Assembly: GCF_038396675.1 (NCBI RefSeq) | Contig: NC_088930.1 | Span: forward strand, 33,624,501-33,688,500 | Length of the DNA stretch: 64,000 nucleotides | DNA from: Hydra vulgaris | Taxonomy: Eukaryota; Cnidaria; Hydrozoa; Anthoathecata; Hydridae | Direction: 5' to 3' | Shown: piece after piece, positions 1-56,878 of the stretch | How the letters are laid out: the number at the start of each line of letters is the position of its first letter | Position numbering within the stretch: position 1 is the first letter of the stretch | Made by a program: the position numbers and the translations under genes | Notes under the pieces: generated by a model | The model's database searches: none | Seen by the model: only the letters and a program-made list of their open reading frames with translations | What the model was told of the DNA's origin: nothing

Positions 1-1436
1 ATTTATATAAATATCTAAATATTAATATGAAATAAAGTCTAAATATTATTATGAAATAAATGGGGTTTAAAATTTCAGGGAAATTTTGCTCAAAATTTCA
101 GGTAAGTTTTAAAATTTATTTATTGCAATAAAATTATAATTATTATACAGTTTTATAAAATAAATTTCTTTGTTTCAAAAAAATGCGTTTTAAGATCGCA
201 ATATTTGGGTGTTCTTTAAATATTTCAATAAAAATAAAGAAACTATCAAGACTCACGAGCAAAAAAATTGACTAAAATCTTTTAAACAAGTTTTTATAAT
301 CAATATAATAAAATTGTGTTCTACCCCCACAAAAAGGGTAATTTTCTATAAAATGAAAATTATCTATAAATACGCAATGAGATAATTATCTATAAATGTT
401 AATAATTAGCATATTAAAATTAAAATCGAACATTCTAACACGTTCTCTATGCTATCTTTCTAACTCGACTTCTTCTGACTTTCACTCTAATTCCTTCGTT
501 CTTTTTAAAATCACTTTCGCTTGGTCTGCGAACCGGGCTATGATGCTATTTAATGAGCTGAAATCGTTTTTGCAGGCCTTGGTAATGCGGCCTCTGTATG
601 GCAATTAGCCGCATGAGGATAAACCACAATACCTAAAAAGGTAGTTTCAAGGTATAGCCGGTTTTTTAACGAATTTAGTCGGGTATTTGACACAATTCAA
701 ATTTTAATTTTTAAGGACCTTTTCTTTTTAAGAAACCATTCGGTACTTTTTACCGACTCACCCCCCCCCCTCATTTTTTTATTTAATAATTTATAATGTT
801 AAAAGTGCCCTAGCAAAAAATAATTTTAGACTCAAATGTTAAAAAAATTTTTTTTTTTCTTTATTACAAATATTTTACTTATAAATAGTATATATTTAGA
901 TTAAACAATCAAAAAAATTTCGTTATTTTGAACATTCTTAATTAAAGCTAATTTTAACAAAAAAAACTGATCACCATTTTAATTCCATTAGGAAAATGAA
1001 AAGCAAATAAGAAAAGTTTTAAATCAAGGTTTTCTACGAACATAGTAAAAATACACAGTTTGATTTTAAGCAGCTCAAAAGTTTCGGACTTTGGTGATAA
1101 CTTGTTTGTTTTCTTGTTTTCGCTAAAACCATATCTTAACAAGGCGAATTGTTTTTTTAAATAAAAAAGTCAAAACTAATAATTCAAAAATTCGCCTTGC
1201 CTTACCAATATTATAGCTTATCGTTATCGTTTGACATTGTTTAAGAATGTTGTAAAATAATTAATGCTAGGAAGGACAGATAGACATTATATATTTGTAA
1301 TAATTTCAAATGCAGAACAAATGCACAACCGATTAAATTTCAATATAAAAACGATAAGCGAAGACAACTATCATCGAGACTGGTAAATATTTGCGAGATA
1401 AATTAGTTCCGATGACGATAGTTAATAAAGACAGTT
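1..1436. other. AT-rich non-coding stretch
   Basis: No coding region, RNA gene or repeat that I can support. The short open frames here have no recognisable protein content. A pyrimidine-rich tract with a run of C lies near 760-780. Confidence 0.5.
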
Positions 1437-1567
1437 AAGACCGCACTTACGTTGATAAATATTAATTCGGCACTATTAATAAAAAGACCGCACTTACATT
1501 GATAAATATTAATTCGGCATTATCTAGAGGAAGACCGCACTTACGTTAATAAATATTAATTCTGCAC
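1437..1567. repeat. 47-bp tandem repeat, about 2.8 copies
   Basis: Three units start at about 1437, 1484 and 1531, each opening with AAGACCGCACTTACGTTGAT (the second has ACATTGAT, the third ACGTTAAT) and running into AAATATTAATTCGGCA. The period is 47 bp with few differences between units. It lies downstream of the F-box gene end and has no evident function. Confidence 0.85.
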
Positions 1568-1900
1568 AAATAGGAGGACGACCAAAATAACATGCCAAAA
1601 AGTGTAAAAATATTTGAAATATTAAAACAAATATTCACTACGAAAATAAACCGAACAAGAGAGGATTAAAGATTAATAGATTGGCCAATGAAATAAAACA
1701 GCAGTATCGCGGTCGTAAAAAAAATAGTTAAGATAATAATAATAATAATAAAAATAATAACAACAAAAATAATAGCAATAATAATAGAATTGAATTAAGA
1801 GTAGAAAATTCCTTAAAACATATACATAATAAATACTATCTGGTTAAAATTATTCACATTATTCGCTGATGCCTCGCCCATTATAGCTATTTAATTTTTG
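1568..1900. other. Non-coding, AAT-rich simple sequence
   Basis: This lies just past the stop codon of the F-box gene, so it probably includes its 3' untranslated region. A degenerate AAT/AAC repeat occupies about 1732-1788. I could not assign a clear polyadenylation signal. Confidence 0.4.
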
Positions 1901-4900
1901 TTACCTAAAACGATGTGTATTACACGGATAATATGAGCGAGGATGAAAGTACATATGAGGCGGGTGCATTAAAGCTTGCCGTTGCTGCAGCCTTCTATTA
2001 GCTTCTTGTATAAAGTAAAGTTCAGGGCGAACTGATTCGGTTATAACAGAATGTTCAAGAGATTGGGCTTTTTTAAATAAACTATGAAGCTGCAATGAAG
2101 CAAGCTCTGAAAGTTCTCTTCTTACTTTGTTAAAATCCGTGTATAAACCACTTTCTAAAAACCTAAAGAATTTAAAACAACATTTGCATAAATAAAAGGT
2201 TACCAAACAAATAGGTTACTGTAAAAAATATCAATAAGAACAAAAAAAAAGAAGTTGAAGATAGGTATAAGTTACTTAAAAAATAAAACAAAATGAAATA
2301 AACGTAATTAAAAAATATACCTTTGAACTAGACAAGCAACAGGATCGCTACCAAGAACAGGAAAAGTATAATCGGGCGTAAGCATTGGAGGTCGCAAACT
2401 TCTAATAACAACGTCTCCAAGTATAGAAACCAACCAAAGATTTTCTTTCAGCCAATGGCTCAATACTTCACGTCTCTCAAAATACATGCGAAGTTTTGCA
2501 AAGTCTTCTAAACGTCCATTTTCCAAATATTTTCTTTAAAAACAAAAACAAAAAACTATTGCTATTGTGAATATGAGGAAATCCTTATGCATAAATAAAT
2601 GATTTAAATGAGCATATTTATATGCAATATTCATTATAGAATATTTAGTTTTTAAAATTATTTAAAAAAAAAATTAATTTAAATTTAAGTGATGAGAGTT
2701 GAAATAAATTCTTGAAAACCAGAGGTGTATCCAGGATTTTATGATATTTGAATTATGTATGTGTATACATACATAATTCAAATATCATAATACACATAAC
2801 TTGTGTATGCTTATACTTTATTTATTAAAAAATGTTTTGCTAAAAATTACGCTAATTAGAGATTGGGAACAAAAATACCCTAAAAATTAAGCATAACTCA
2901 TTAAAATGTTTTTTCAAAATATTAAATAAAATTTCTAAAAAAAAATTCATTCAAGAATTTTAAATTTCATTTAAAAACATTTTGACTACCTCATGTAAAA
3001 TTTACAGCCGCTCATTTTTAGAAAGTTGTCAATTTTACATGCTAATAACTTTTAGTTGCCAAATGATTTTTTTATAAAACTTTAAATCTATGCATAAAAA
3101 GTAGTCATAATAAATAATTTTTTGGATAAAAAAAAACAACAACCCACATTTCAGCAAGTGATTCCCAACCTTTTATGATCCCAACTACATTCTTACAACT
3201 ATAACACATATATACAAGTATAAACACTCAAAGGAGTTAAGAACTTATCTGGAAGTTTCTTAAGTTAAACCCCAAAAAATTCTGGATCCCATGTTGAAAG
3301 CCATCTACTTAAAAAGCAAGTCATTGCTAAAATTTTTACTAAAAAAATGAATCTATAATAATTTTATAAAATTATTTTATAAAAGTATGCATGATGATTA
3401 TAGATTTATTTTTTACTAGAAAAATAAATCTATAATCATCATGCATACTTTTATAAAATGAAGCTTCTAGAATTTTCTGCCTCATTCTTTTTTATCTCCT
3501 TAATCCTTAATTCCTCATAGCTTAGTTTACATGGTTCTAAGTGTTCAGGCGTTTTAGACTAATTTAAAAAATTTAAATACATTTTATATAAAAAGTCTGA
3601 AGCAAAATAATTTTTTTAAAAAAGTAAAAAAGTGGCCTGTGTTCCAAAATGAGCAAAACAAGATTCTGAAAATTTTTCTTTTCAAAAAAAAAAGAAAATA
3701 CAGTAACTGAAATTTTAAAAAATTATTTTTCTTCTGAAATTTAATTTTTGGATAATATAAGAAAAATATATATATTGGGGGAAACATAAAACAATTAAAT
3801 TTATTTTATTCTACATTGGTTGATTTGATACCAATACATAAATACATACAAACATATATACACTTTATAATTTTAAAATACTAACCTATAACAATCATGT
3901 CTTCGAACAAGCATTGAAGATCGATGTTCTTTTCTATAAGCTGTACCATGTTGATTTTGCCAAAGCCAGACCTCATGAAGTTTTTCAATAAATGGACATG
4001 CTTTACGCATAAATGATTCTGCACAAAGTTCCCGTTCTTCTGCAACTGTAGCTAACTAAATAATTGCAATGATATGTATATAACTATTTATATTTATGAC
4101 CATAATGAATTCTAATGTGATGTAATATAAAAAACAATTACAGTTTTGTTCACATAATCTAACGCATCTCGATAATCCTGAGCAAGAATTTCACCTAGAC
4201 GTGGAGGCCACACTCCTACACTTTTTTCTTCTACCCATGACTTAAATTTGGCACAAAAGTCAGCATACGCCTTAACAGTTTGAAATCCACCTTTTAGACT
4301 GCCATCTATATACATTGCAGTAATCTAATAATAATGTAATAATAATCTTACGTGTAACAATATGTAAAGTGTAATTATAATTAAAAAAAAAGAAAATAAC
4401 AATAGTGAAAAACAGAGTAATAAATTAATACCGCACTTAACCTTTTAATTAATTCATTTTTTTATTCAATGAAAAAAAAAGTTATAAATAATAAAAATAA
4501 TAAAGCCTAAATTAAAATTTTCATCTAAATATTATTATTCCAGAGTTCTTAGTGCAACTTTTTCTTACCTGATGTAACATATAAATATAAGTGACTTTTG
4601 GCATATGTTCGGTAAGGGCTTTTAATGCTTCTCTGTTTCCAACATCTTGATCTTCAAGATATTGGTACCATTTTTGTCTTCGAGATGCATGCAAAGATAA
4701 TTTATAATGCTCTTCTAAAGCTTGACGATTTCGATAACATCGTTTAAGGACATAATTTTGCATAGGAATAATTCCGCCGTGTTTTTTTAGAAAAACAGTA
4801 TACAGGCGACTCCATTCATAATGACATAGTGGAAAGATTTCAGGACGATCAACTAAATTTAAAACATATTTTAAGAAATAATACAAAATTTAAAATAATG

Positions 4901-5294
4901 CAAATTTAATGTTATAATATTATATAATAGATTTAATTTTTTATTTTATTAAAAAAAAGGAATGTATTTATACTATTGTATTGCCTAATTTATTATACAC
5001 TATTATAGTTTTGAAAAAAGTAAAGTAAGTTAAATATCTATAACAAAAATGTTAAAAATTATTATAGAAATATAGGAATATTTATAAATGATATAGTAAA
5101 AAAAAAACTGTAGTTGGTTAAAATAAATGCAGCTGAAGAGTTATGTTAACAAAAAAAATAAATAAAAAGGTTGAATAATGCTGTTAAAGCCTTCTGTATT
5201 GACTGAAAGCTTATATGGTTCAACAAAAGTTAAAATAATAACAACAAATAATAAATTTTATATATATATATATATATACAAATATATACAAATA

Positions 5295-5379
<85 letters not shown>

Positions 5380-7921
5380 CAAATTAAGAATTATAATAAA
5401 AAGCAATTTTTCTAAAGCTTATATAGCTGAATATAGACAAAGATATTCACCTGTGTCATCAAAGTACATTTCTTCTAATTCTTCCTCTGTTATTCCCCAT
5501 ATTGATTTTACTTGACTTGCTGTAAGATGTCCAACAACATGACAAGGAGGTAGTGGATTAGTCAAATACCATACAATTACTGATGTTTTTAATTGACTAA
5601 CAGGTTTGAAAAAATTTTGATCATCTCGAAGAGTAGCAGCTTTGAAAAACATTTCATATAGATACAAATAAGAAAATTCTGTCCATTTTGTTTCAAGATT
5701 GAAGTCATTCTGATTTAAAAAAGTATTTTAAATAAAATATCAAAAACTTAAAAATTCAAAATGTGCATCAATAAAGAAAAAATTTATTTATAAACCACAT
5801 AAAAAAATTTTTTTTTAATTTAATTGATTAAAAAAAAATTAAAAAAAAACCCCCCCTCCTTTCTCAAAAAAAACCCCATAAAATATCAGTAAGGAAATGG
5901 CTTCAGAAAAGATTTTTTTTTTTTTGAACAAATATTAAGATTTCTTTATTTATTTTTGAATAAATTAAATGTCAAGAGCTTTGGATGGAGTCATGACATA
6001 GAGAGCATTTAAAACCATTATATACAATAGTGTGGAAGCTGTTTTAACAGGATATTTGTAAAAGAATTACAAAAACATATATGCAAATAGGAGATTTAAA
6101 AGCACATTTAAAACATTAGAAAAGTCTAAACCAGTCTTTAAGCTTTTTAGGGATGAAGACAATACTTTTATCTCATCAAATGAAATATTTGCATTTAAAA
6201 TGAATTAAAGAAGAGATTCTATAATCACACTGCATTGAAGTTAGTCAATATGCTTAGCTGAAAACTTATAACTGAGATAATTATCATTTGTAAAAATGTT
6301 AACGAGCTTCCCTGTAATTATAAAGATAAAAAACAAAAAAAATTTGGCTTTTTTTAAAAGGATAAAAATATTGACATTAGAAGGCTAGATTAATAATACA
6401 GACAAAACCTTAAGATAAGGACCTCATTACAAAAAATGATTAGAAAGTTCATAATACAAAATTCTTTCAATTACTTTTTTACAATCCTTTTAACTGCATT
6501 TTAATATCTTATTTAAAAATGAGTCACAATAGAACTTTATAAAAAAATAAAAAAAAATTTTTAACTATTTTTTCTTTTTTTACTTAGAACTTTTAGACTT
6601 TAAATTGCACTTTAAAAAAGGAGGCCTATGTTAATAAAAAGCATTTGAAGCTCTAAAAACCTTATTGAAACCATTTTGAATAAGAGTTTTTCTAAGGTCT
6701 CAATAAAATCTTTTCTTTTCAAAAATTTATAGCATTTATCTAAAAGTGAAAAGATCTGAAAAAAGCATTTGTTTTATTTATCTGTTATATTCTTTTTCTT
6801 TTACAGTTTTACACAAAAAGCTTCGTTTGAGTTTTGTGTGGACATGTTATTAGAAAGAAGTGTTTTTTTGAAAACCTTTCATGATTATATAAATAAAGAG
6901 AATTAAATTTTTTTTCAAAACACAACAGGATAAAAAATCAGTCAAAAGTTTACTTCAGCTTAATGTAAATAAACCACAAAAGGAAAGAAAAACCATTAGT
7001 AAATATATATTCATAAGACAAATATCATATGGAAAAACCTTGTGTTTGCATATTTAAATAAAAAATAAAAGAGTACTATTTTTATTAATAATAAAAATAA
7101 AAATAGTGTAAAAAAGATTGATCACATAAAAAAAACCTTTTCACATTTATAAAATTTATATTAAAAACAGCAGTACAAAATTATACTTCGTAATATTCTA
7201 AGTTTATAATTATAATTTTTTTTTAATTTATGAATGTATTTAGCATATATTCATAAAATGAAAAAAAAAGTACAATTATAGTTCATAACTATAATTTTTT
7301 TTTTAATTTTTGAATATAATTAATATATATTCATTATAATTATAATTTTAAACTTATAATATTACCCAGTATATTTTTTTATAGCTGTGTTTAATAGAAA
7401 CATTATATTTTTTTTTTATAAAAAAAGTATAAAAACTATACTTATTGTTATTATATATTTTAAAAAACATGCTTCATTTGTTTTTTGTTTTGTTTAAGTA
7501 TGCATTATTTATAAATGATATGTATGAACATATGCACTTTAATATACACATAAACTTATCTTACCTTACAACGATGCTTCCAAAGTGAATCGGTATGACA
7601 AACTCGATGAAATAGCCAACAGGTTTTACTAGTATTTACAAGTCCAGGAGCAGAAACATGCTCTAATATAGCTATCAAAACTTCTTCGCTCAAATCGCAA
7701 AGTTCTATTTTTCGTTCGCAAGTTTCGTGAAAATATTTTTTACGTTTTACTCGATTTTTTTTTCTCGCATAAAAACTACTACTACTTTTTCTTTTTTTTC
7801 TTTCCCGAATTTTATTTTTTTCTTCTTTCATTTTCTTTTCTTTTTCATTCATATTTGCAGTCATTGAACGAGTAACGCAACTCAATCTACAAGGCTCCAT
7901 TTCTTCATCTATTGAAGTCAT
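1901..7921 (-). CDS. F-box protein, seven exons
   Basis: Proposed exons, 5' to 3' on the minus strand: 7921-7565, 5709-5451, 4852-4569, 4324-4142, 4055-3886, 2533-2321, 2162-1901. All junctions use GT/AG and all phases agree (0,1,0,0,2,2), giving about 575 residues with no internal stop. Exon 1 has an acidic start, a Lys/Arg-rich stretch (about residues 25-65, likely nuclear or disordered) and then an F-box at about 73-119 ([17 protein letters not shown], then W..H and SLWKHRCK). F-box proteins normally bind SKP1 and bring substrates to an SCF ubiquitin ligase. The rest (W-rich, helical, with [20 protein letters not shown] and [15 protein letters not shown]) looks strongly constrained, but I do not recognise the subfamily, so the substrate is unknown. 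The last codons (TTTAGGTAA) also resemble a splice donor, so a further 3' exon is possible. It is the only cellular gene supported in the window. Confidence 0.85.
2739..2790. repeat. Perfect hairpin, 24-bp arms, 4-nt loop
   Basis: The arms 2739-2762 and 2767-2790 are exact inverted complements around GTAT. It lies in the intron between F-box exons 5 and 6. It has no target duplication or TIR signature, so it does not look like a MITE. Confidence 0.9.
3374..3459. repeat. Perfect hairpin, 40-bp arms, 6-nt loop
   Basis: The arms 3374-3413 and 3420-3459 are exact inverted complements around TACTAG. It lies in the same F-box intron as the hairpin at 2739. Perfect arms imply a recent origin. Confidence 0.9.
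5259..5376. repeat. TA microsatellite in F-box intron 2
   Basis: A nearly pure TA dinucleotide run, with a few CAA and TG interruptions at its left end. The Tyr-Ile open frame across it is an artefact of the repeat. Confidence 0.95.
5710..7564 (-). other. Intron 1 of the F-box gene
   Basis: Bounded by a GTAAGA donor after the AAG codon at 7565 and a TTTAAATCAG acceptor before 5709. It is AT-rich with many A and T homopolymers. I see no nested gene or recognisable element. Confidence 0.7.
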
Positions 7922-21669: not shown

Positions 21670-24012
21670 TTAAATAGTGAAAACTTTCCTCCTTGATTTC
21701 ATATTGGCAAAATCGGTTATGATGTTTTTCATTTCCATTTTTCCAGCCGCTTTTGCCTCAATAGAAACTATTGCAAGGTCGCTTAAACGTTCTTTACCAA
21801 TGGTATTTCGTAAATAATTTTTTATTATTTTAAGTTTTGAAAAAGAACGTTCAGCTGATGCAACAGTAACAGGTAATGTAAGAAACAATAACAATGCTGT
21901 TATCACTTGTGGAACGCTTGCAGCTATAGTTGACAATTTTACTATTAAAAGGTCAGCCAATTCACGTATAGATGATATTTTTGATATTTCATCGTGTAGC
22001 ATTGACTTTACCATAACCATTTGCAGCGGAAATTCAGTTGTTATATCTTCACTATATTTTCTCTGAATGGCTTCTGCACAGCTTATGATCTCACGTTCTT
22101 TCATTACCATTAATTTATTTGGATGGATGCAGGAAAATAATTGTACCACTTCTTGCATTCCTTTAAATCTATTGTCGAGTTGGTTGATAACAACGTCCAA
22201 AATTTTTATAAAAATATTGATGGGAAAAATTTCCTCACTACTATTAAAACGGTGATCTGTAGATAATTCGTCAAAATGCCTTTTCACAATTTTTCTTCTT
22301 TTTTGAAAAAATATTGCAGGAATCTGCCACGTAGTCGCTATTTCTACCGCTTCAAGTTTTGCTGAATCAAACATCTTTCTATATTGTTTTAAATTTTTGC
22401 TGGCATTTTCTAGAGAACCTGAAGCTGTCGTAAGATCTAAATTTTTAGTTTGCAGCAATTTTGATGGTATATGTACCTCATTAAGGATTTTAGACAAAAG
22501 CACGCATAAAAAAACAAATTCGAAACTGCTAATATTTTTTTGTATTCGTACTGCTTCTTCGCGTTCTTCACGTTTTGTACTTGTTATTGATATCTCGGAA
22601 AGAGCTTTCATTATATCAAGAAAGCGAATTTTAACGGCGAAAAGAAAAGTATATCGTCCTGCCCATCGCGTTGGATTTAACCTATTTAATGTTATTTGTG
22701 ATTCTCCTGTATATTTGGATAGTAGATCCCACCTGTTTATGCTATTTCCGAAAAATGAATACACATCTTCTAGCATTACAAAAAATGAAGCAACTTCAAC
22801 ACAACATTTAACCGCATCGTTAATAACAAGATTTAAATTATGAGCTGCGCAATGCATATACATAGCATTGGGTTGATTTTTCTTAAAAAGGGCCTGAACC
22901 CCATTGTATATCCCACTCATGACGTTCGCACCATCATAACTTTGACCCCTGCAGTTACTTAATTTTATATGATGTTTTTCTAACAGATTTAATATTTCTT
23001 CATGTAGTCCAGCAGCAGTGTGGTTATATATTTCCGTGAATCCCAAGAAAACTTCTTTAATTTCAATTGATGTGGCTTCATCTTTTTCATTTTTAATAAT
23101 TTTTACGTATCTAAATACTTGACTGAGCTGATCTCTTTTAGTAATATCTTGTGTTGTATCCATTATAATTGAATAAAAAGGTGAACTATTAATATCAGCA
23201 GTAAGAGTGGCTTTTAAATGCGCTGCAAGGCAATGTATGACTTCATTTTGAATTTGATGGCTTAAATATTTTATAGATCCATTTGGCATACTCAAAACTT
23301 GCTTCATAACATTATCATATTTAGCTAAAAGTTGAACTTGGGTTAAAAAATTACCATTATATTCATTGTCAAATGATTCACGATGACCACGAAAAGCCAA
23401 AGAATTTTTACAAAGTGCTAATGTTATATTTACTATCCGCTCTAAGACTTGCACCCAAAAATTTGATTGGTATCGTACTTGTTCTTCTATATTTTTATCA
23501 ATTGTTTCATTATGTCGCCATTTTTCATAAATGCAACAAGCAAATATATGTTGTTGACTATTTTCGTGAATTTTAATTTTTTTTAGAAAGACCACGCCAA
23601 TCTCTGACACCATGCTCACGCCAGTTATCCTTTGCTTTTCGTTCTTCTGAGAAAAGCCAACAAGGCTCGCAATAAACGGCATCAAGTTTTGGGGAATAGC
23701 AAAGCCACATTCTTTCTATAGATCCATATTTTGTGGTAGTTTTAAAATATTCCTTGGAAAACCTACGGTTTTCTTGCAAGGGGTCGCGTATAAAAGGACC
23801 TTTTGGCCGACACGATTCCGATAATACAATTATTTTCTTAATATCTTTTGTTAGTATTTTACCATGAAAATTTGCAATGTCAGTAGAAAATAATTCACTT
23901 GATTTTTCTAAATTAATTTGTTCAATGGCGTCATTCGTATCAGAGTTTGAATCTTCCTTGTCTTCATTTCGGTGGTTTCTCGGAGACCTATTCACATCTT
24001 CTTCGTTCACAT
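21670..24012 (-). pseudogene. hAT transposase (ZMYM1-like), one frameshift
   Basis: Two overlapping minus-strand frames (24010-23573 and 23685-21670) make one protein of about 780 residues. The first has an acidic Ser/Asn-rich start, then a TTF-type zinc finger (ERMWLCYSPKLDAVYCEPCW). The second has a DUF4371-like core with the catalytic Asp in SIIMDTTQDITKRDQ and CRGQSYDGANVMSG, and the C-terminal hAT dimerisation block with the conserved Glu in TVASAERSFSKLKIIKNYL. The shift is in a run of eight T (plus strand, 23577-23584); one base fewer would make the frames continuous. The N-terminal exon upstream is damaged by the inverted duplication and carries a stop. Confidence 0.9.
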
Positions 24013-31739: not shown

Positions 31740-34700
31740 TGGCCTCTTTGAACTATAAATTTTTTTTTTCTCTTTTAGTTTATAGTGTCTATATGCTTAT
31801 GTGTGTATGCCATTTTCTAAAATAACTCTTTTATCGTCTTCTGCGCTTAATGCTATTTTATTGACCTCTTCTGTGTAAATTTCATATAAATGTGATCTTA
31901 TTGCATTTATTTTCGTAATATGATTCCTCTTACTTAATAAACAATCTTTGTAACCTTCATGTGTTATATATTTTTTAATAACATTTTTCTTTACCCCCTT
32001 ACATTTTTTGTTATCTTTTTCGTGTACTTTGTAAGAATACAACTTTTATCTGAGTCCTAAAAATTCTTCAATTTGTGCTTCTGCTGTTTCATCTTTAAAC
32101 ATCCCTATTACTTTCTTATTAACATCAACTTTAAAACCTACATTATTAATTGCTGGATGATTTAATGTGGGTCAAATTCACTTGTATTAAATTTGCTTTC
32201 AACATCATTAAAAATATCTATATAAAAGTCTTCTGTTTTTATTTCATATACTAAAGAATCTGCATCTGTGAATAATAGTTTTGCTCGATCAGAATATTTA
32301 TTCTTTATGTAATCACAGTGAAATTTATTCATTAGTGTTTTACTTAAATCTAATATACACATACCTAAGTAAATTGGTTTTTTATAAAGCAATTTTGTTC
32401 TTTTCATATGTATTGCTATTAAGTTATCATCAAATATATTTCTACTTTCATAGTTGGGTTTAGATGCTAATTTAATAGCTTCATCTCAATTTTTAACTTA
32501 TCTAATATCAACTCTGTTTTCAATATTCTCCATTGTTTTTCCAAATACTGAATTATTCATTAGTTTAAAAAAAGTCTTTATCAAAATCATTAGTTGCTTT
32601 AATTCTTCGACTTGTATTTAGTTCAATGTATTCACTTAACCGTGCTCTTTTTTCAAACTTTATACCTCTATGAACTTTTGTAATCTTTAATCCTAATCTT
32701 TCATACAATTTAAGATTTCCATAATGAACTATATAATTTTTCTTATTATTAAAGTTAGGTACTAATTTTTCAACATTATCAACAGTTATTCTTTCAGGTG
32801 CAAGTGGATAATCATTATGATCATCATGTAGATTTTCAGGGTAATCTAAATCAACTTCTAGTATACAGGAAATTGATTTCCAGTTTGTAAACTCGTTTTC
32901 ATCTATCCATTTGAAACCATGTGTTGGAAGTGGTTTACTCATTGCCCATGCATATAAATTATTAGCATCTAGCTTCTGTATATATGTTGATTGTTTGCTT
33001 TGATCATACTTATCATTTATATACTTATTATTAGAAATTCCTAATCTATTAAATATCATATTAATTCTACCCCTTATTCCTTGCTTTATCATCAATATCA
33101 TATCATAATCACTCAGCAGTTTAAATTTTATTTTCGTTTTCTTTAATGCTGCATCCCAAGCTAATCCTGGTGAAGTATAATACCGAGCGGGATCTAATTT
33201 ATAACAATTAATATAAACATCTCTAAAATTTTCAAATACATAAGTTAATAAAAGCACATTTGAGACGTTGTACAAATCATGGTAATCTTTAAATATTTTA
33301 CAATTAAACCCATTCCATACAATTTGTGCATACGAGTTATCATAATCACTTATACCTTCATCATTTAATTTTGAAAAGAACGATTCTTTTGGTGGTAATT
33401 GTGTTTCAGAAAATTTATTAATAGAATCAACCCAATTATATGGGTACACACCTTTTGTTAGTAACAAATCTAATTTTTTACCAGAATATAATTTTCCGAT
33501 ATTTTTACCTTGATCTTTTGTTAAATTGTTTGATAAACTATCTAAATTAGAAGACATAAATCTATAACTATCTAAATACATAGTTTCTTAGATGTTTGTG
33601 TAGAAAGTAATCTACTTAAACTTTTTATGAAGCAATAATGATTAGTAACACCATTTGAGATCAATAATTAATCTATTAAATGTTTACGATTATTATTTTT
33701 TGACACACGTAAAATATGAACTGATGAATTTTCATATCCAAATACATTGACACTGATATCTGTATTGTTTTCCTCAAATTGCGTAATTTGGTTTAATGAT
33801 ACTGGAGATTCTACTTTTTCCCAATTTATTTTTCAGCTTAATTTTTAAGCTCCTTATCTACTCTTTCAGAATTTTTATCTATAGGATTTAATGCTCTTGT
33901 GATACACAACTTAAAACACTCATTATCTTTAATTTTTATATTAATAATTGCCTTTTTATTTGCTAAATTTTTATCAAGTGGAATGTATGATTTAGCTTAA
34001 ATAGGATTATACTCAATAATATTTATATCGATCTTTTTAATAGAAACAAACCTCCAACCTGACCCTGAAATGATGATAAATTTTCTAGAATTCTTAGCTT
34101 TGATATTTCATATAATTCATTCAAATCTGTTGATTCTAATACAACTTGATTCTTCGCTGCAAATGAAGCAGTTGTGAATTTAGTTTCTCCTGTTTTAATA
34201 TCAGTACACTCCGTTTCACAAAAGAGAACTATATAAATCTTTGATTTTCTATTTTTATTTAGTATTTTAATTGCACTATTTTTACAAGATTCATAAATGA
34301 TAAAGCATCATAACCTTTTTCACTTAGGGCTGTGAATCATTTTTTAACATTCCTAATAGATTATTGTGTTAATTTAAATTCTATTGCTGTTCTTACTTCA
34401 ACTTTATTATCCAGTTTATTTTTATTTCCAACTTCCATATTTGATTGACTTTATTTTTAATTGTATTAGGTACATGCAACACAATCCAATTTGCATTAGA
34501 GTTAAATCTACTTTTTTCAGTAGATTCTTTTTTTACAGTAGAATTTTAGGTTGTAGTAGATTCTTTTTTTACAGTAGAATTATAGATTGTAGTAGATTCT
34601 TTTTTTGCTATATTATTTGTATTTTTAATCGCATCAGGAACATATGATATAAGCTAATTTGCAGTAGATTTTGATGCTCTTTGTTCAACTAATGGAGCTT

Positions 34701-44697: not shown

Positions 44698-45372
44698 GAG
44701 CCATTTTCTGATAAAATCAGGCAAAAGTAGTGTCGGCTCAAAAGTGATATCTTTTAATCGCGCTCAATTTTATATACAGTAATGGTAATAGGGTAAAAAA
44801 GAAGCCTGTAAATTTTTTTTTTTTAAATATTTCTAGTTCCTGAGTTATGGTCGGTCAAACTTTTGCCCTTTTAATACTTGGAAAGTCACTTTTGGGGTTT
44901 TATGATTTTTAAACTAAGATTAAAAGCAATGAGACCACTGCACCCTAAGTTTCTTTTCATATTATGGAAGTATAGGTAGAACTTTAAAAAAAAAAATCAA
45001 AAAAACTGAGGACAATCCTTCCTTTGTCTAAAAATCATAAGCTGAAATCACACATTTTTGAATTTGGGGCCTACTTTAAATACATTTATCTCGGAGCGTA
45101 AAAAGTGCCCGCGACTTATCTCATTCTTTTTTGAAAGAGTATCTCATTTTTATTTGAATGGTCTAGAGAAACTGAGAGGATATTGTTTACAAAAAAACTT
45201 ATGAGTCATCAAAGTGTCAAAAAATGTTTTAATTAGCGTTCAAATATCAGCCATTATGGGAAATGGGAAAGGTCCCAAGATTGAAGATACAGATTTTCTA
45301 TTACTTCATATTACAATTTATTTAATGCGAAAAAAAAACTTAGGGGGTAATATTTCATTGTTATAATAACTC
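44698..45372 (+). repeat. Left long terminal inverted repeat
   Basis: About 675 bp, pairing with 49672-50338. Well-matched landmarks include CTAGTTCCTGAGTTATGGTC, CACTTTTGGGGTTTTATGAT and TTTTTGACACTTTGATGACT (the last on the complementary arm). The outer 130 bp have diverged more than the rest. Confidence 0.9.
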
Positions 45373-45517
45373 CATCACAAAAAGTTAAATTTTTTATATA
45401 TTTAAAAAAAACAACCGAATGTAGCAGCGGAATTAATCAATATATTATATGATGTCCTTATCTTATTATGCCATTGTTTGCGTCATAAATCAGTTTTACA
45501 TATCTATATCTTTGATT

Positions 45518-48500
45518 TTAATGCATTGTTGCTTGAAATGCTTTTTGGGCTTTTTCAAATTGATCATCCCTAAGCTTATAGTCTCCAGACTGTTTTAACG
45601 GTAAAGGTGGTAGAATTCCACAAATGATTTCACTGTCTTTGTACTTTATAACATCAGGAAAAGCTGGCCACTTAAAAAGGTTCTTGACTGCAGAAGCATA
45701 CTTCATACAGCTCACATTGTAACCATCACTGAGAACCTAATATGAGTAATGATTTTTCTAATTTGAAAAATAGTTTGAAAAATCTGATTCTCATTTGACA
45801 AAAGTAAAACTTCGTTTAAATTTAGTGACACATTTAATATGATCAAATAATGTTAAAAAAAAATGTTTTTATTTGAATGAAAAACATTTTTTTAAACATT
45901 GAATGAAAATGAAGTACCTCATTTACAATCCCAGGATACCAATTGCCCATATAAATAACAACAATCCAATCGTTTTCATGCCATGCACTAGATAAATCAA
46001 TGGCAATGCTTATAAATTCCTTTTCAAATTCTTCATTTTCTAATTCTTCTAGATCTAAGGAAAGAAAAATATAAATATTTATACAAACACTTGTACAAAT
46101 ATTTATATATTACAAAATAATATTAAAATATATATTCATGAGAGTAGATATAAAAATTATTACCTTGATCTGCTGTCTCTTCTTCTTCGTTATCCGCATT
46201 AGCACTACCAACATCAATTGGTTCATTTAATCTTTTGTCTTTTTTTAGCCTGCTCCAACGTGAAAATAGTGATCTTATTTGCTGAGTTGTTACGTATTCT
46301 GAGACTTGAAGCTCTTTTCTTATCAAAAGGTGCACCTGCTCTGGACTAAACTTTTTTCCAGATACTTCACCTTCCATAAAGAGTTTATATAATACATCTT
46401 TTTGTCTCATACTATACCGGAAGGTACTGCGTGTAGGTAAAGCCCAACCTTTAACATATTTGCTAATGTCAGAACATTCTTCTTCAATTACCTCCTGTTG
46501 TGAGTTTGGTTTATAACTATGTAAGTTTGACTGAACTTGCATCTTCATTATGAAACTCTGTCTCACGTTATCCATTCCTGATTTTAAAGTGCTAATAATG
46601 TGTCTTCCCAACATCATGTGTTCTTCTAGTTCTTCTGATGTATGGAATGATCCATTACAAAATGGCTCAGTGCAAAAGTGAAACAAATTTAGTAATCTAT
46701 CTTCGCGAAACTTTTCTTTCATATTGCTTTTAAAAACTCTTGTTTTCTTTTCAGTATCACTATATGGGTGTGTTAAAAACATCTGCAGATCAAAATTGAC
46801 ATTGGAATATTCTTGTTTAACTCCATCGCCAACTGCATAGTATCGCCACATTGTCATATAATTATGAAAGAACTCAAACGAATGATACTGACTTATTTTA
46901 GCTATTTTTGTTCCGCTCAACTTGCTTTTTCCCTTTATAGTGGCAACACCAACAGCAGAATTTTTCAGCCCATGTCCGTAATGTAAAGCAGTATAAATGT
47001 CCTCTGCACACATCAAATCGTTACCAGCGTCAACAAAGCTACGAATCAATGACTTTGCTCCGGCAGCTTCTCTGTCGCACTGATCCTTGCCACGACAAGG
47101 TTCGTTGTAATCGTAGCGCTTAAGCTGTATTTGGTTATTTTTGCACAACATAAAAAGAGCTTCCATTATAAAGTTGCCATGGTACGATGAAGCATTGTCG
47201 GATTTTGCAAAGAGTTTATTAACACCAGAATGGTCATGCTTAAACTTCGGAAGAACTAATTGGGCAATTGATAGTGTTTCCGATAAACCTTGCTCACACC
47301 TATAAAGAGCTGTAAAATAGACCTTTTTATGTAAAATATTATTTTTCTTAGTGAAGAAAATGTCTACATGCAGTGACATCCCCTTTTTTCCAAAATATTC
47401 TTTTTGACCTTCCCTGAATTTGGATGGTAGAACTTTTTGGCAATAGTCTTTCAACCAAAATCCAGTTTCTTCATCAAGATTTTCAAAAGCAAAAACTTTG
47501 GCTTTTTTCTGTTGACAATCACGCATTAAATGTTTTTTATAATCAATGATGTCTTTTTCAGCAATTTCAATATCATAAATAATATCCTCGTCGGCTGAAT
47601 TACTTGATGCTAATCTTTTTATCTCAACTAAGGATTTGTTTAAATTTTCACACTCATAACAAATCTTATCATTAGGTGCTATTGAAATCTGTTGCAATTG
47701 CTTGTCGGTTATATCACTCAAAGCAAATATTGGGCAGTGGGAGATAGAATTAGGGTAGGTCGCACTGCAGTTAAACTGGAAATTAGTTTTGTAATATCGT
47801 TTGCTGCGTTCAAATAAATTACTCAGCTCTCTATTCTGGTACTTTAAAGATAAATCTTGCAACATAGAGAAACCATTCATAGCTGCAGCAGTAATATCAT
47901 CCAGTCCCGCTAAACATTTTTGTTGAGATGGTTTAACAGCATGAAGTATTCGCCACAAACTGCTTTCCGATAAAGGAGAGTAGTTCTCACTTCTGCAAAC
48001 TTCATTATAAAATGCAATTGTATGACTCATTTTAGCTGTCAAAACTGCACGAGATATTTTACATACATCATTTGAGTCAAATTTAATTTTTGTGACTCCA
48101 TATGCAACATCTTGAAGAAGGTTGCTGTTAAATATGAAATCGAGAAAATGTTCAGCTTTTTTCTGGTCTAGTCGATTTCGCGTAATTTCTTTTTCGACAG
48201 GAATAGTTATACCTATGCTAGCATTCTTCATTTTTCGTGCCTGGTCTATCTTGTATTTGGAGCACCCAAAAACTTTCATAAGTAACTTCTTAGTAAATTT
48301 TTCATGTTCAATTAAACACAGAACAATATGTTTACCCATAGAGTCACTTTCTTCATAAATTTTAACAAATTTTTTTAGATCATCAGGTACTGCATCATTG
48401 TCTGAAGTTTCCGAAGATCTATTTAAAACAATTGAGATAAAGTCTTCACTCTGATCTGGGGCAACAGCTTCAGCAAACCTCTTTGCAAGCTGTACCTTGG

Positions 48501-49473
48501 CTCTTTCAAATTTTCTTCGTAAATTATTTTTGGTTCCATTGCTGAGATCAGCTATCATTTTATTCTTTATCTGAAACTGAAAAGGGCTGATGTGGAGTGC
48601 TTCTGATAGGTTGTTACCAGTAGATGTAGCACCTTCAACCTTTTCTCCAGAAAGTAAAATTTCTTTAGGCTCAAAATCAAAATCAGTTGTGTCCTCAACC
48701 AACTCTTTGTTAGTGGCAGTACTTGTTTTAGTTTGAATAAGAATGCGCTCCGACTTAAGGTGATTGTGACAAAATACGGAACCTACAGGAACATTTTTGT
48801 TGTAATATTTTGAAACATTTATTGACATATTTATTGAAACACTTCTTACAGATGGTGATTTTTTACCAACACTTAGTTCATGCATTGGATGACAGCATCT
48901 TCTTGGAGGAACCCAGCCAATACCTTGAATTTTAACAAAAATCAAAATTTGAAATTTTTATTTAAATATTTCAAATTTATTATATATTATTTAGTAATTA
49001 AATTTTGTTATTGTTGAAATACGGTTGTAAGCAAATTCTTACCAAAGTTAAATCTATGGTAAGGACAAATATAGTCGTTATCAGAAAGTGATATGCACCC
49101 TCGGTTTTCTATAAGAGACTTTTCTGTCCATTCTGTCTCGTGGTGCGCCTTTAAAACCTAAAAACATAAAACTTAGATATTATGCAATGTAAACTGAGGG
49201 AATTAAACAACAATCATTTTACACTACTATATGATGCTAACAGGTTTTTTTTTTACTGCTAAGAGCATTTCTTACTTTAATTTTTACAAAGTGTGCTTTG
49301 ACATCCAAAGTCAGATCTTGTATCTTGAATAACCTTTTTTTATTGAAACGAGGATATGGTCCACACTTGACATCATTAACTTTGCAAACATTTTCAATAA
49401 CAACCTCTTGCTCTGACATATTTTTTGCAACTAAGTGTTTTTTTTTAAAGTACTTTAAGCATAAAATGCTCAT
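45518..49473 (-). CDS. Putative transposase of the TTAA element, five exons, intact
   Basis: Exons on the minus strand: 49473-49276, 49157-49043, 48923-46164, 46054-45918, 45736-45518. GT/AG junctions and phases (0,1,1,0) agree, giving about 1142 residues with no stop or frameshift. The start may instead be the inner Met of MSEQEVVIE (49419). Domains: a Cys/His-rich module across exons 2-3 (ICPYHRFNFGIGWVPPRRCC, then HPMH, residues about 95-115); a central region with CYECENL; a possible catalytic core with FAKSDNASSYHG (Asp about 679) and RGKDQCDREAAG (Glu about 723); a C2H2 finger (FCTEPFCNGSFHTSEELEEH, about 850-875); a helical block (YSMRQKDVLYKLFMEGEVSG); and a Tudor/SH3-like C-terminus over exons 4-5 (WIVVIYMGNWYPGIVNEVLS, KNLFKWPAFPDVIKYKDSEI). 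Transposase function is inferred from the flanking repeats and the acidic residues. A domesticated role is also possible. Confidence 0.85.
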
Positions 49474-49671
49474 TCTCTGTTCTGAATAATTCAGAAGGAA
49501 ATGCTCAATAAACCATACTGAATAACTGTAAATTAAGAAATAATGTCTAACAGTAATTAATTATGTTCAATAAACATCAAGTTAAAAATGTTTACTGAAA
49601 AAAATTTATTTTCAAGTCCACAATCGTATAAATGAAAAAAAACAAAAAACAGATTTAGCATCATTTTGACG

Positions 49672-50338
49672 TAATATTATTTCAACAATGGAATATTACC
49701 CCCTAAGTTTTTTTTTTGCATTAACTAAATTGTAATATGGAGTAATAGAAAATTTATAAATTCAATCTTGGGACCTTTCCCATTTCCCATAATGGCTGAT
49801 ATTTGAACGCTAATTAAAACATTTTTTGACACTTTGATGACTCATAAGTTTTTTTGTAAACAATATCCTCTCAGTTTCTCTAGACCATTCAAATAAAAAT
49901 GAGATACTCTTTCAAAAAAGAATAAGATAAATCACGGGCACTTTTTACGCTCCGAGATAAATGTATTTAAAGTAGGCCCCAAATTCAAAAATGTGTGATT
50001 TCAGCTTATGATTTTTAGACAAAGGAAGGATTGTCCTCAGTTTTTTTGATTTTTTTTTTTAAAGTTCTACCTATACTTCCATAATATGAAAAGAAACTTA
50101 GGGTGCAGTGGTCTCGTTGCTTTTAATCTTAGTTTAAAAATCATAAAACCCCAAAAGTGACTTTCCAAGTATTAAAAGGGCAAAAGTTTGACCGACCATA
50201 ACTCAGGAACTAGAAATATTTAAAAAAAAAAACTTTACAGGCTTCTTTTTGATATTACAAACAACGCAATATGTAAAATTGAGAATGATTGAAAGATATC
50301 ACTTTTGAGCATTGCCTGGTTTTCTCAGAAAATGGCTC
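49672..50338 (-). repeat. Right long terminal inverted repeat
   Basis: About 667 bp, inverted relative to 44698-45372. Its inner limit is near the AATATTACCCCCTAAG motif at about 49692 and slightly beyond. Confidence 0.9.
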
Positions 50339-53783: not shown

Positions 53784-54879
53784 AATTTTTACGTATAAAT
53801 ATATGGTAAAATCGTTAAACTCTTTTAAGTTTCTAATAAAAAATGAAATTTTTAAACTAGATAAATGATTGCTTAATTTTTTTCTAAATGAACATTGAAT
53901 TTCATTATTCCTATTTATTTTTTTGTTTGATCGTCTCCTATTTTTTATTTTTAAAAGAATTTGTCAGTAGGGGAGAGTGGGGAGAAGTGGGACGCGGGAG
54001 AAGTAGGACACCCCTATAATTTTATTTCGCAGCAGCGCCTAATTACTGTTATTTAATGTAAACGTATAGAATTCATGTGCTCTTTTTAGTAGACATCATT
54101 TCCCTTCTCTGCGCGCGGTGAAAACCCTATTATTTGAAAGTACCCCAAAAAAGTACTTTTCCTGACAGTCTAGTAACTCATGTATGTATTTATATTTGAC
54201 TGTTGTTGCACTTTTTTTCTATTTTACAGGGAAATGCACTTATCATCTAACATTTAATAATTAAATTTGTATTTCAGCTTTAACTCTGTGGCTGTAACTT
54301 TAGTTTCATTTCGTCTTCCCTACGTAGGGGTGAAGTGGGACAAAGAAAAAAGCCGCTGTCCCACTTCTCCTTTACAGTTATGCGTTATTTTATTGCGGAA
54401 AATTCTGGAATATTTTAGCTACGATTTTTTATAGTTTTCAAAATAAAAATATTGACACACTTTATTGAAATATTTAATTTTAGTTTTAGTTCTTATTCAG
54501 TTGATTTAAAACGAAATTTGGAAAGAGAGATCTTCATTATAGATAAATTTGATTTGATTCATCATTATTGTTTTGAGCAAATTTAGAATTATTTTTACAT
54601 CAATAGTTTGAAAGCATTTGGAAAGCAAAAGGCACGCATAATAAGATATAGTAATAACAGTGACCTTAATACCATAAAAAATAAATATTTTTTATAAAAT
54701 CTAATTTCTTTTAAATTTCAGGTCATGCCTAGAGTTTATAACAGAAAAAATGAATCTCCACATGTTTCAGAAAACATTTTTAAAGTTGCTGTAGCCGAAG
54801 TGGAAAATGGAATAAGCCTTAGAGAAGCAGCATATTCGGCTGGCATTTCTAAGTCTGCACTTCATAGGTGTATAAAAAA

Positions 54880-54926
54880 AAAAGTGTAAATACCCAGCTG
54901 CCAAAAAGCTGGGTATTTACACTTTT
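54880..54926. repeat. Perfect hairpin at the transposase deletion
   Basis: The 20-bp arms AAAAGTGTAAATACCCAGCT (54880-54899) and its complement (54907-54926) enclose 7 nt. It lies exactly where the central transposase has been lost. Confidence 0.92.
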
Positions 54927-55251
54927 GGAAAGCCACCTTTCACTACAGTCACTTGAATATGCAAAAGAGAACCATGTTTGTATGATGACTTTGCCACCAC
55001 ATACTTCACATAAGACACAACCTTTAGATAGATCTGTTTTTGGTCCAATGAAAACATATTTTAATGCAGCTGCCAATAGCTGGATGCTTAGCAATCCAGG
55101 GCAAGCCATTACAATTTATGAGATGGCCAGTCTCATTCGACAAGCATGGGAAAAATCTTCCACACCAACAAATATTATGTCAGGATTTCGCGTGACAGGA
55201 ATTTGGCCTTATGATAGACATGTATATGGGAATGATATTTTTTTACCATCA

Positions 55252-55479
55252 GTTGTAACAGATAGAGATGTACCTCAAGAACCATGCAGTGAAGGCTCGT
55301 GTGAGAAATCGATTACAACTGTTACTCCTTCAGATATCTCAGGTTTGGATGTGCAACATGAAGCAGTTGTTACAGATAGAGATGTGCCTCAAGAACCATG
55401 CAACGAAGGTTCATGCGAGAAATATAATACAAGTGCTATTCTTTCAGATATATCAGGTTTGGGTGTGCAACATGAAGCA
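55252..55479 (+). repeat. 114-bp coding tandem repeat, two copies
   Basis: Units at 55252-55365 and 55366-55479, each encoding 38 residues (VVTDRDVPQEPC..GSCEK......SDISGL.VQHEA pattern). The period keeps the frame. The two copies differ mostly by substitutions. Confidence 0.93.
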
Positions 55480-56878
55480 GTAATAGAAAACTTAAGTGTA
55501 TTTTCTCCGAGATTGTACAAGGTTATCCAAAGGTAATTTAAACTAAATATTCTTAGTTTAGGTTTTCTTTAAATTCTATAATTATATAATACTATAATAT
55601 ATATTTTGCAGACACCTTCTAGTAAGATTTTAAGACGTGGGCGTAAAAAGGGAAAGTGTATGATAGCCACATCAACACCAGAGATTTTAAGAATAAAAAA
55701 TAAAGTATTAAACAAACAAAAAGGTAAAAAAATTGTCCTTCTAAAATCCAAAAATGTGAGGAAAAACATTTTACGGAAATCGAACAGTGACCTTTATGTA
55801 GATTTCAACAAAATAACAAATGATGTTTCTGCTAATTGTTACTCACTAGAGTTTGAAGAAGAATTGGAAACAGTTTCTTTTAGCGTTATTCAAAATGTGA
55901 GTGTCAGTGATTATGTTCTTTGCGAGGTTTGTAGTAAAAACACCATTTCTTATTATGTAGGCATAGTGCAGAAAGAAATAGACACAAATTTTGATGTTGA
56001 GGTCAGCTTCCTGAAATGCCAGAATAAAAAAACTTCTAAATTTGTCAAACCTAGAATTAATGACATTCGTAGTGTGAATATTGATGATATAAAAGCAGTC
56101 CTGCCTCAACCGCTTGCTGGAACAACATCAAGAACAAAAGCTGAAATCATTTTCCAAGTGAACTTTGGCATCTTAAATGTAAAATAACTTTTTTCTTTTT
56201 TTTAACGAAGAAATTTTAATTCTTAAAATGTAATCTTAATTTGATTGAAAAAAGCATTAATAATTTGATTTTTTTTTCTATTTTTCATCTCTCCAAGGGG
56301 GCCACTTCAGTCGAGGAGGCTACGCATTTTTAAATATTTTTTTTTATTGTGGTTACAACCCTCTCTCAACCCTTTAACTCGGAAACACGAACCTTTACAA
56401 ACAAGGCCCGCTGCGCGAAGAAACTAAGTTGAGCGTGGTACTTCCAGAGACGTCAGGGTGGCCACAGCTCCTCTAATGTCCTTTTTTTTCAAAAACCTCC
56501 TCTAAAATCCTTTATTATCTTCTAAGAAGTTAAAAATGTGATCAAATCTCCTCTTTAACTCCTCTTTTTTATTTTTTTATTTCTTGATGGTAGTATAATG
56601 TTCAAAACTCATGGTCTGCAAAACTGGATAACATCTAAAATAAGGATTAGGTTGTAAAAAATTATTTTTAGCGAATCCGTGTCATCTAGCATAAAAAATG
56701 ACATTGTTGACCCTTGTCCAAACCCCAGTTATGTGGAAACATGGACGTTAAACCTGTATAAAAAATCCTCTATTTTTATTCAAAATTTTGTAGTTTTGCG
56801 GGAAAGTCCTCTAAATTAAATGCAAAATCTCTTCTAAAATCCTCTAATATCCTCTTTTTCTTATAAAAATGTTATGTC

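Follow-up and report, generated by a model that had tools for sequence, protein, structure and literature searches.

The 64,000-base stretch of Hydra vulgaris DNA analysed here (contig NC_088930.1, positions 33,624,501 to 33,688,500; hereafter the window) contains a 5,641-bp element at window positions 44698–50338. It is a recently mobile DNA transposon that duplicates TTAA at its target, and it is best regarded as a young, intact, probably autonomous cut-and-paste transposon, most likely of the Sola3 group.

As recorded in an earlier annotation made by eye from the same letters (the first-pass annotation), TTAA lies directly outside each end (Table 1). The element starts with GA and finishes with TC, its termini being GAG/CTC, and GAGCCATTTTCTGA reads inward at both ends, in agreement with the shared termini described at first pass. 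The terminal inverted repeats, put there at about 670 bp, align over 672 bp on the left against 662 bp on the right, with 29 mismatches and 16 gap columns. TTAA occurs 964 times in the window, and the chance of finding it at two fixed places is about 2e-4; coincidental flanks are of no concern because copies elsewhere in the genome also carry them.

In a search of the genome (911,502,276 bases in 15 contigs), 30 of 415 DNA candidates were scored and at least 134 matches were obtained; at least 11 places among the matches listed cover the full query (1–5641). Twenty-eight loci were examined (L001–L028, L001 being the window copy). TTAA is present on both sides in 18 of the 20 two-ended copies, and the other two have a one-base change on one side (TAAA/TTAA in L006, TTAA/CTAA in L018), so that the genome-wide check for TTAA-flanked copies proposed at first pass came out in favour of the proposal. 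At the found end of the one-ended loci, TTAA is present in six of eight (TTTA in L023, TTTC in L027). The left ends found in other copies start with GAG (GAC in L012), and among the two-ended copies TTAA is preceded by C or T in 18 and followed by A or G in 17. Three of 20 further places from a search with the terminal repeats were also read: L037 (3,689 bp) and L039 (4,367 bp) are internally deleted and TTAA-flanked, and in L038 the left end adjoins TTAA, while no right end was found within the stretch read.

The state of the target before insertion can be read from L004, which sits in a dispersed host repeat. A query was made of the two L004 flanks with one TTAA between them (positions 197–200), and 40 of 723 candidates were scored, two of which were the flanks of L004 itself and were left out. 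The joined flanks match at least 38 other places, from about 105 to 275 and spanning the junction, at 92–97% identity. In all 12 of these that were read, the repeat continues without the element, with TTAA at the junction in 11 and TAAA in one. The single TTAA at 11 of 12 empty sites therefore indicates that insertion made two TTAA from one.

Differences between the two arms are unevenly placed, with 30 of the 45 differing columns falling within the outermost 100 bp on the left. In 18 of the 20 two-ended copies, a left (L) type of outer sequence stands at the left end and a right (R) type at the right. Because the same L-type and R-type sequences recur across copies, the difference in the outer ~110 bp is an inherited, end-specific asymmetry of the family, and divergence between the repeats was discarded as a measure of age. 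The visible divergence described in the first-pass annotation thus holds as a count; its reading as a sign of activity in trans or of domestication is not supported, since the differences are concentrated and family-wide. The asymmetry may serve end recognition, which the fixed difference between left and right opens to direct testing. Two copies depart from the pattern, L008 with its outer ends exchanged and L015 with two R-type ends; these cases suggest that the long inverted repeats have recombined with each other.

Three of the 28 loci, namely the window copy, L002 and L003, retain an intact coding frame; a single stop interrupts it in L004, and stops, shifts or deletions are seen in the rest. 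L002, which lies on another contig with other flanks, is identical to the window copy in coding sequence and differs from it at three positions over 5,641 bp, in line with the recent activity suggested at first pass. The ratio of nonsynonymous to synonymous substitution rates (dN/dS), a plain pairwise Nei–Gojobori estimate against the window copy that involves mostly dead copies and carries no significance test, is 0.37–1.13 in 26 of 27 loci (L002 shows no difference). Values of about 1 were obtained for L005, L015 and L020, which are close dead copies, and of 0.37–0.89 for the other 23 loci, as would be expected if mobile lineages are selected while dead copies drift. Domestication, also raised at first pass, would make the gene a host gene still bordered by transposon ends, and the frame, intact over 1,124 codons, would fit it. 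This reading is highly improbable, given complete ends, duplicated TTAA and dN/dS of about 1 against the close dead copies, and it was dropped: youth accounts for the intact frame, because two other intact copies exist on other contigs, one with an identical coding sequence.

The transposase gene has four GT-AG introns, and its joined exons give 3,375 bases without an internal stop. The relative P0003 aligns in one stretch to residues 12–1116 at 45% identity, and this alignment supports the four predicted exon joins. The five-exon structure with agreeing joins proposed at first pass is thereby upheld, and the length of the product is corrected from about 1142 residues to 1,124. Within the protein, the N-terminal Cys/His-rich module probably binds zinc, and the C2H2 finger noted at first pass has its two Cys and two His invariant in all 29 rows of alignment A2. 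A Tudor/SH3-like tail had also been proposed; a barrel-like tail of five strands is indeed predicted in the model of the relative P0003, and another relative (P0016) has a below-cutoff Pfam match to such a domain.

The centre of the protein is predicted to be the catalytic core of a transposase with three catalytic aspartates (DDD) in an RNase H fold. Structure prediction, which the first-pass annotation had named as a check, places the conserved acidic residues in such a fold. The three Asp are each present in 13 of 13 rows of alignment A4 and are conserved in alignment A1 (Table 1), where the count for D703 covers the rows with a letter at that position, two further rows being gapped. D579 and D662 are 83 residues apart, and D662 and D703 are 41 apart; because the second interval is so short, no large insertion domain is predicted between the second and third Asp. 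The piggyBac transposase has an insertion domain, from which this short spacing differs. The predicted core resembles retroviral integrases and Mos1 mariner transposase in fold at 8–18% identity, a likeness that does not amount to membership; the structural matches listed are mostly retroviral integrases, and a family outside those lists could still match.

A protein search of the genome, in which 50 of 1,789 candidates were scored, gave at least 58 matches, and at least 31 of the 58 listed belong to a second family with about 48% protein identity to the window family. Two of these 31 were read: both are 6.05 kb long and flanked by TTAA, they share 99.0% identity, their ends are GAGTC.../GAGCC..., and their inverted repeats span about 655 bp and are 96% identical. 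TTAA flanks and GAG termini thus occur on both sides of a deep split in the protein. Over 595 residues, two second-family copies match an annotated protein of H. vulgaris (P0008) at 95.8 and 97.3% identity. At least one in-frame TAG occurs in 30 of the 31 listed places of the second family, and none in L040; these codons may be removed by splicing, be read through or be signs of dead copies.

A profile search counted 515 relatives. No functional name appears among the best 120 of these or among the hits listed in two other searches, and one listed hit has an automatic gene name of the 'uncharacterized' kind. Bacterial or viral relatives were not confirmed by tblastn in two scans of genome contigs and two of viral contigs. 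Many of the relatives P0140–P0183 are exactly 992 residues long with near-equal scores, and most of these stand alone in their 90% cluster and lie on contigs several kb long.

The probable assignment to Sola3 rests on features described for that group. Sola3 is reported from Hydra among others, and was reportedly described by Bao and colleagues in 2009 with a TTAA target-site duplication and a DDD transposase. A 4-bp TTAA duplication is found here in 18 of 20 two-ended copies, 11 of 12 empty sites and both second-family copies read, and the DDD triad is indicated by conservation and by the predicted RNase H fold. The element is not known to differ from Sola3 in any feature. Sola3 membership is thus the most likely assignment, which would place the element in a little-studied but already described group and not in a new one.

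An unnamed TTAA superfamily, as the first-pass annotation had envisaged, is possible though unlikely. It would use the same mechanism through a DDD lineage separate from Sola3, piggyBac and Kolobok, and would be widespread and recently active in Hydra, with a compact integrase-like core, Asp spacing of 83/41 and outer ends that differ over ~110 bp while the long inverted repeats are nearly identical elsewhere. The lack of named relatives described above is consistent with this, as are database scans: neither the window protein nor any of ten relatives scanned has a Pfam match above cutoff (at E ≤ 1, the exon-3 frame and joined protein give one unrelated match, below cutoff), no NCBIfam model reaches cutoff in four proteins scanned, and the Protein Data Bank (PDB) holds no sequence relative at E ≤ 1. 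Such genes go unnamed because no Pfam or NCBIfam model reaches cutoff in the relatives scanned. Eukaryotic transposon families receive names in Repbase, however, and a new superfamily is not the preferred interpretation, because TTAA and a DDD transposase are features of Sola3, a group reported from Hydra. In the excerpts consulted, Sola1–3 are distinct groups within one superfamily in Repbase (PMC4455052) and Sola2 makes AT-rich 4-bp duplications (PMC3627910); the excerpts of the literature searched gave no Sola3 sequence or target site.

A Kolobok lineage is very unlikely. According to an excerpt of one account (PMC9587614), Kolobok shares the TTAA duplication and has 5′-RR...YY-3′ termini, which the GA...TC of the window element fits, but it carries a C/DxxH motif between the second D and the last catalytic residue. 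This motif is absent from the window protein, from 33 of 37 scored rows of A1 (it is present in four) and from all 13 rows of A4, and the third acid of the window protein is an Asp at +41 from the second; Kolobok was rejected on the missing motif. A piggyBac relative, although it would share the TTAA duplication, is scarcely credible and was rejected on its termini (CCC/GGG in a table in PMC5704228, against GAG/CTC here) and on the absence of a Pfam transposase match at E ≤ 1 in the exon-3 frame and joined protein. The first-pass opinion that the protein matches neither superfamily is borne out on these grounds.

For a cut-and-paste transposon of this structure, the N-terminal Cys/His module, the C2H2 finger or both would bind the element ends, and the DDD core would cut at these ends and join them to a staggered TTAA, after which repair would leave the TTAA duplication. 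A role in DNA or chromatin binding is possible for the barrel tail. With two intact copies on separate contigs that differ by three bases, the element is a promising candidate for a transposon outside piggyBac that targets TTAA and is still active; it could be tested as a genetic tool and offers a route to how a compact integrase-like core picks TTAA.

Table 1. Features of the transposon in window coordinates; residue numbers are those of the joined protein unless stated.
Feature	Position	Strand	Detail or basis
Left target-site duplication copy, TTAA	44694..44697	.	Window letters and genome copies
Left terminal inverted repeat	44698..45369	+	Outer ~110 bp of left (L) type
Transposase gene, five exons, 1,124 residues	45518..49419	-	Exons 49419-49276, 49157-49043, 48923-46164, 46054-45918, 45736-45518
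Predicted C-terminal SH3/Tudor-like barrel, residues ~1032-1093	45614..45980	-	Exons 4 and 5; model of relative P0003
C2H2-type finger, residues 836-861	46600..46677	-	Alignment A2
Predicted RNase H-like catalytic core, residues ~570-717	47032..47475	-	AlphaFold2 model and structural matches
Third proposed catalytic Asp, D703 (D616 in exon-3 numbering)	47074..47076	-	Near start of helix after fifth strand; 37/37 in A1
Second proposed catalytic Asp, D662 (D575 in exon-3 numbering)	47197..47199	-	End of fourth strand; 39/39 in A1
First proposed catalytic Asp, D579 (D492 in exon-3 numbering)	47446..47448	-	Near end of first strand; 39/39 in A1
N-terminal Cys/His-rich module, residues 19-145	48748..49365	-	Interrupted by introns; conserved Cys/His in alignment A2
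Right terminal inverted repeat	49677..50338	-	Outer ~105 bp of right (R) type
Right target-site duplication copy, TTAA	50339..50342	.	Window letters and genome copies

In the whole 64,000-base window, no RNA family at gathering threshold and no transfer RNA was detected. Outside the element, a 340-residue frame (32565–33587, minus strand) has no Pfam match at E ≤ 0.1 and is presumably, from its appearance by eye, similar to a Polinton/Maverick DNA polymerase B. Two further transposase sequences are recognizable from Pfam matches: a hAT-type sequence in a 681-residue frame (21670–23715, minus strand; DUF4371, 5.9e-19; Dimer_Tnp_hAT, 1.4e-07), and a DDE_1-type (pogo/Tc1-like) fragment (54868–55536, plus strand; DDE_1, 7.1e-10).
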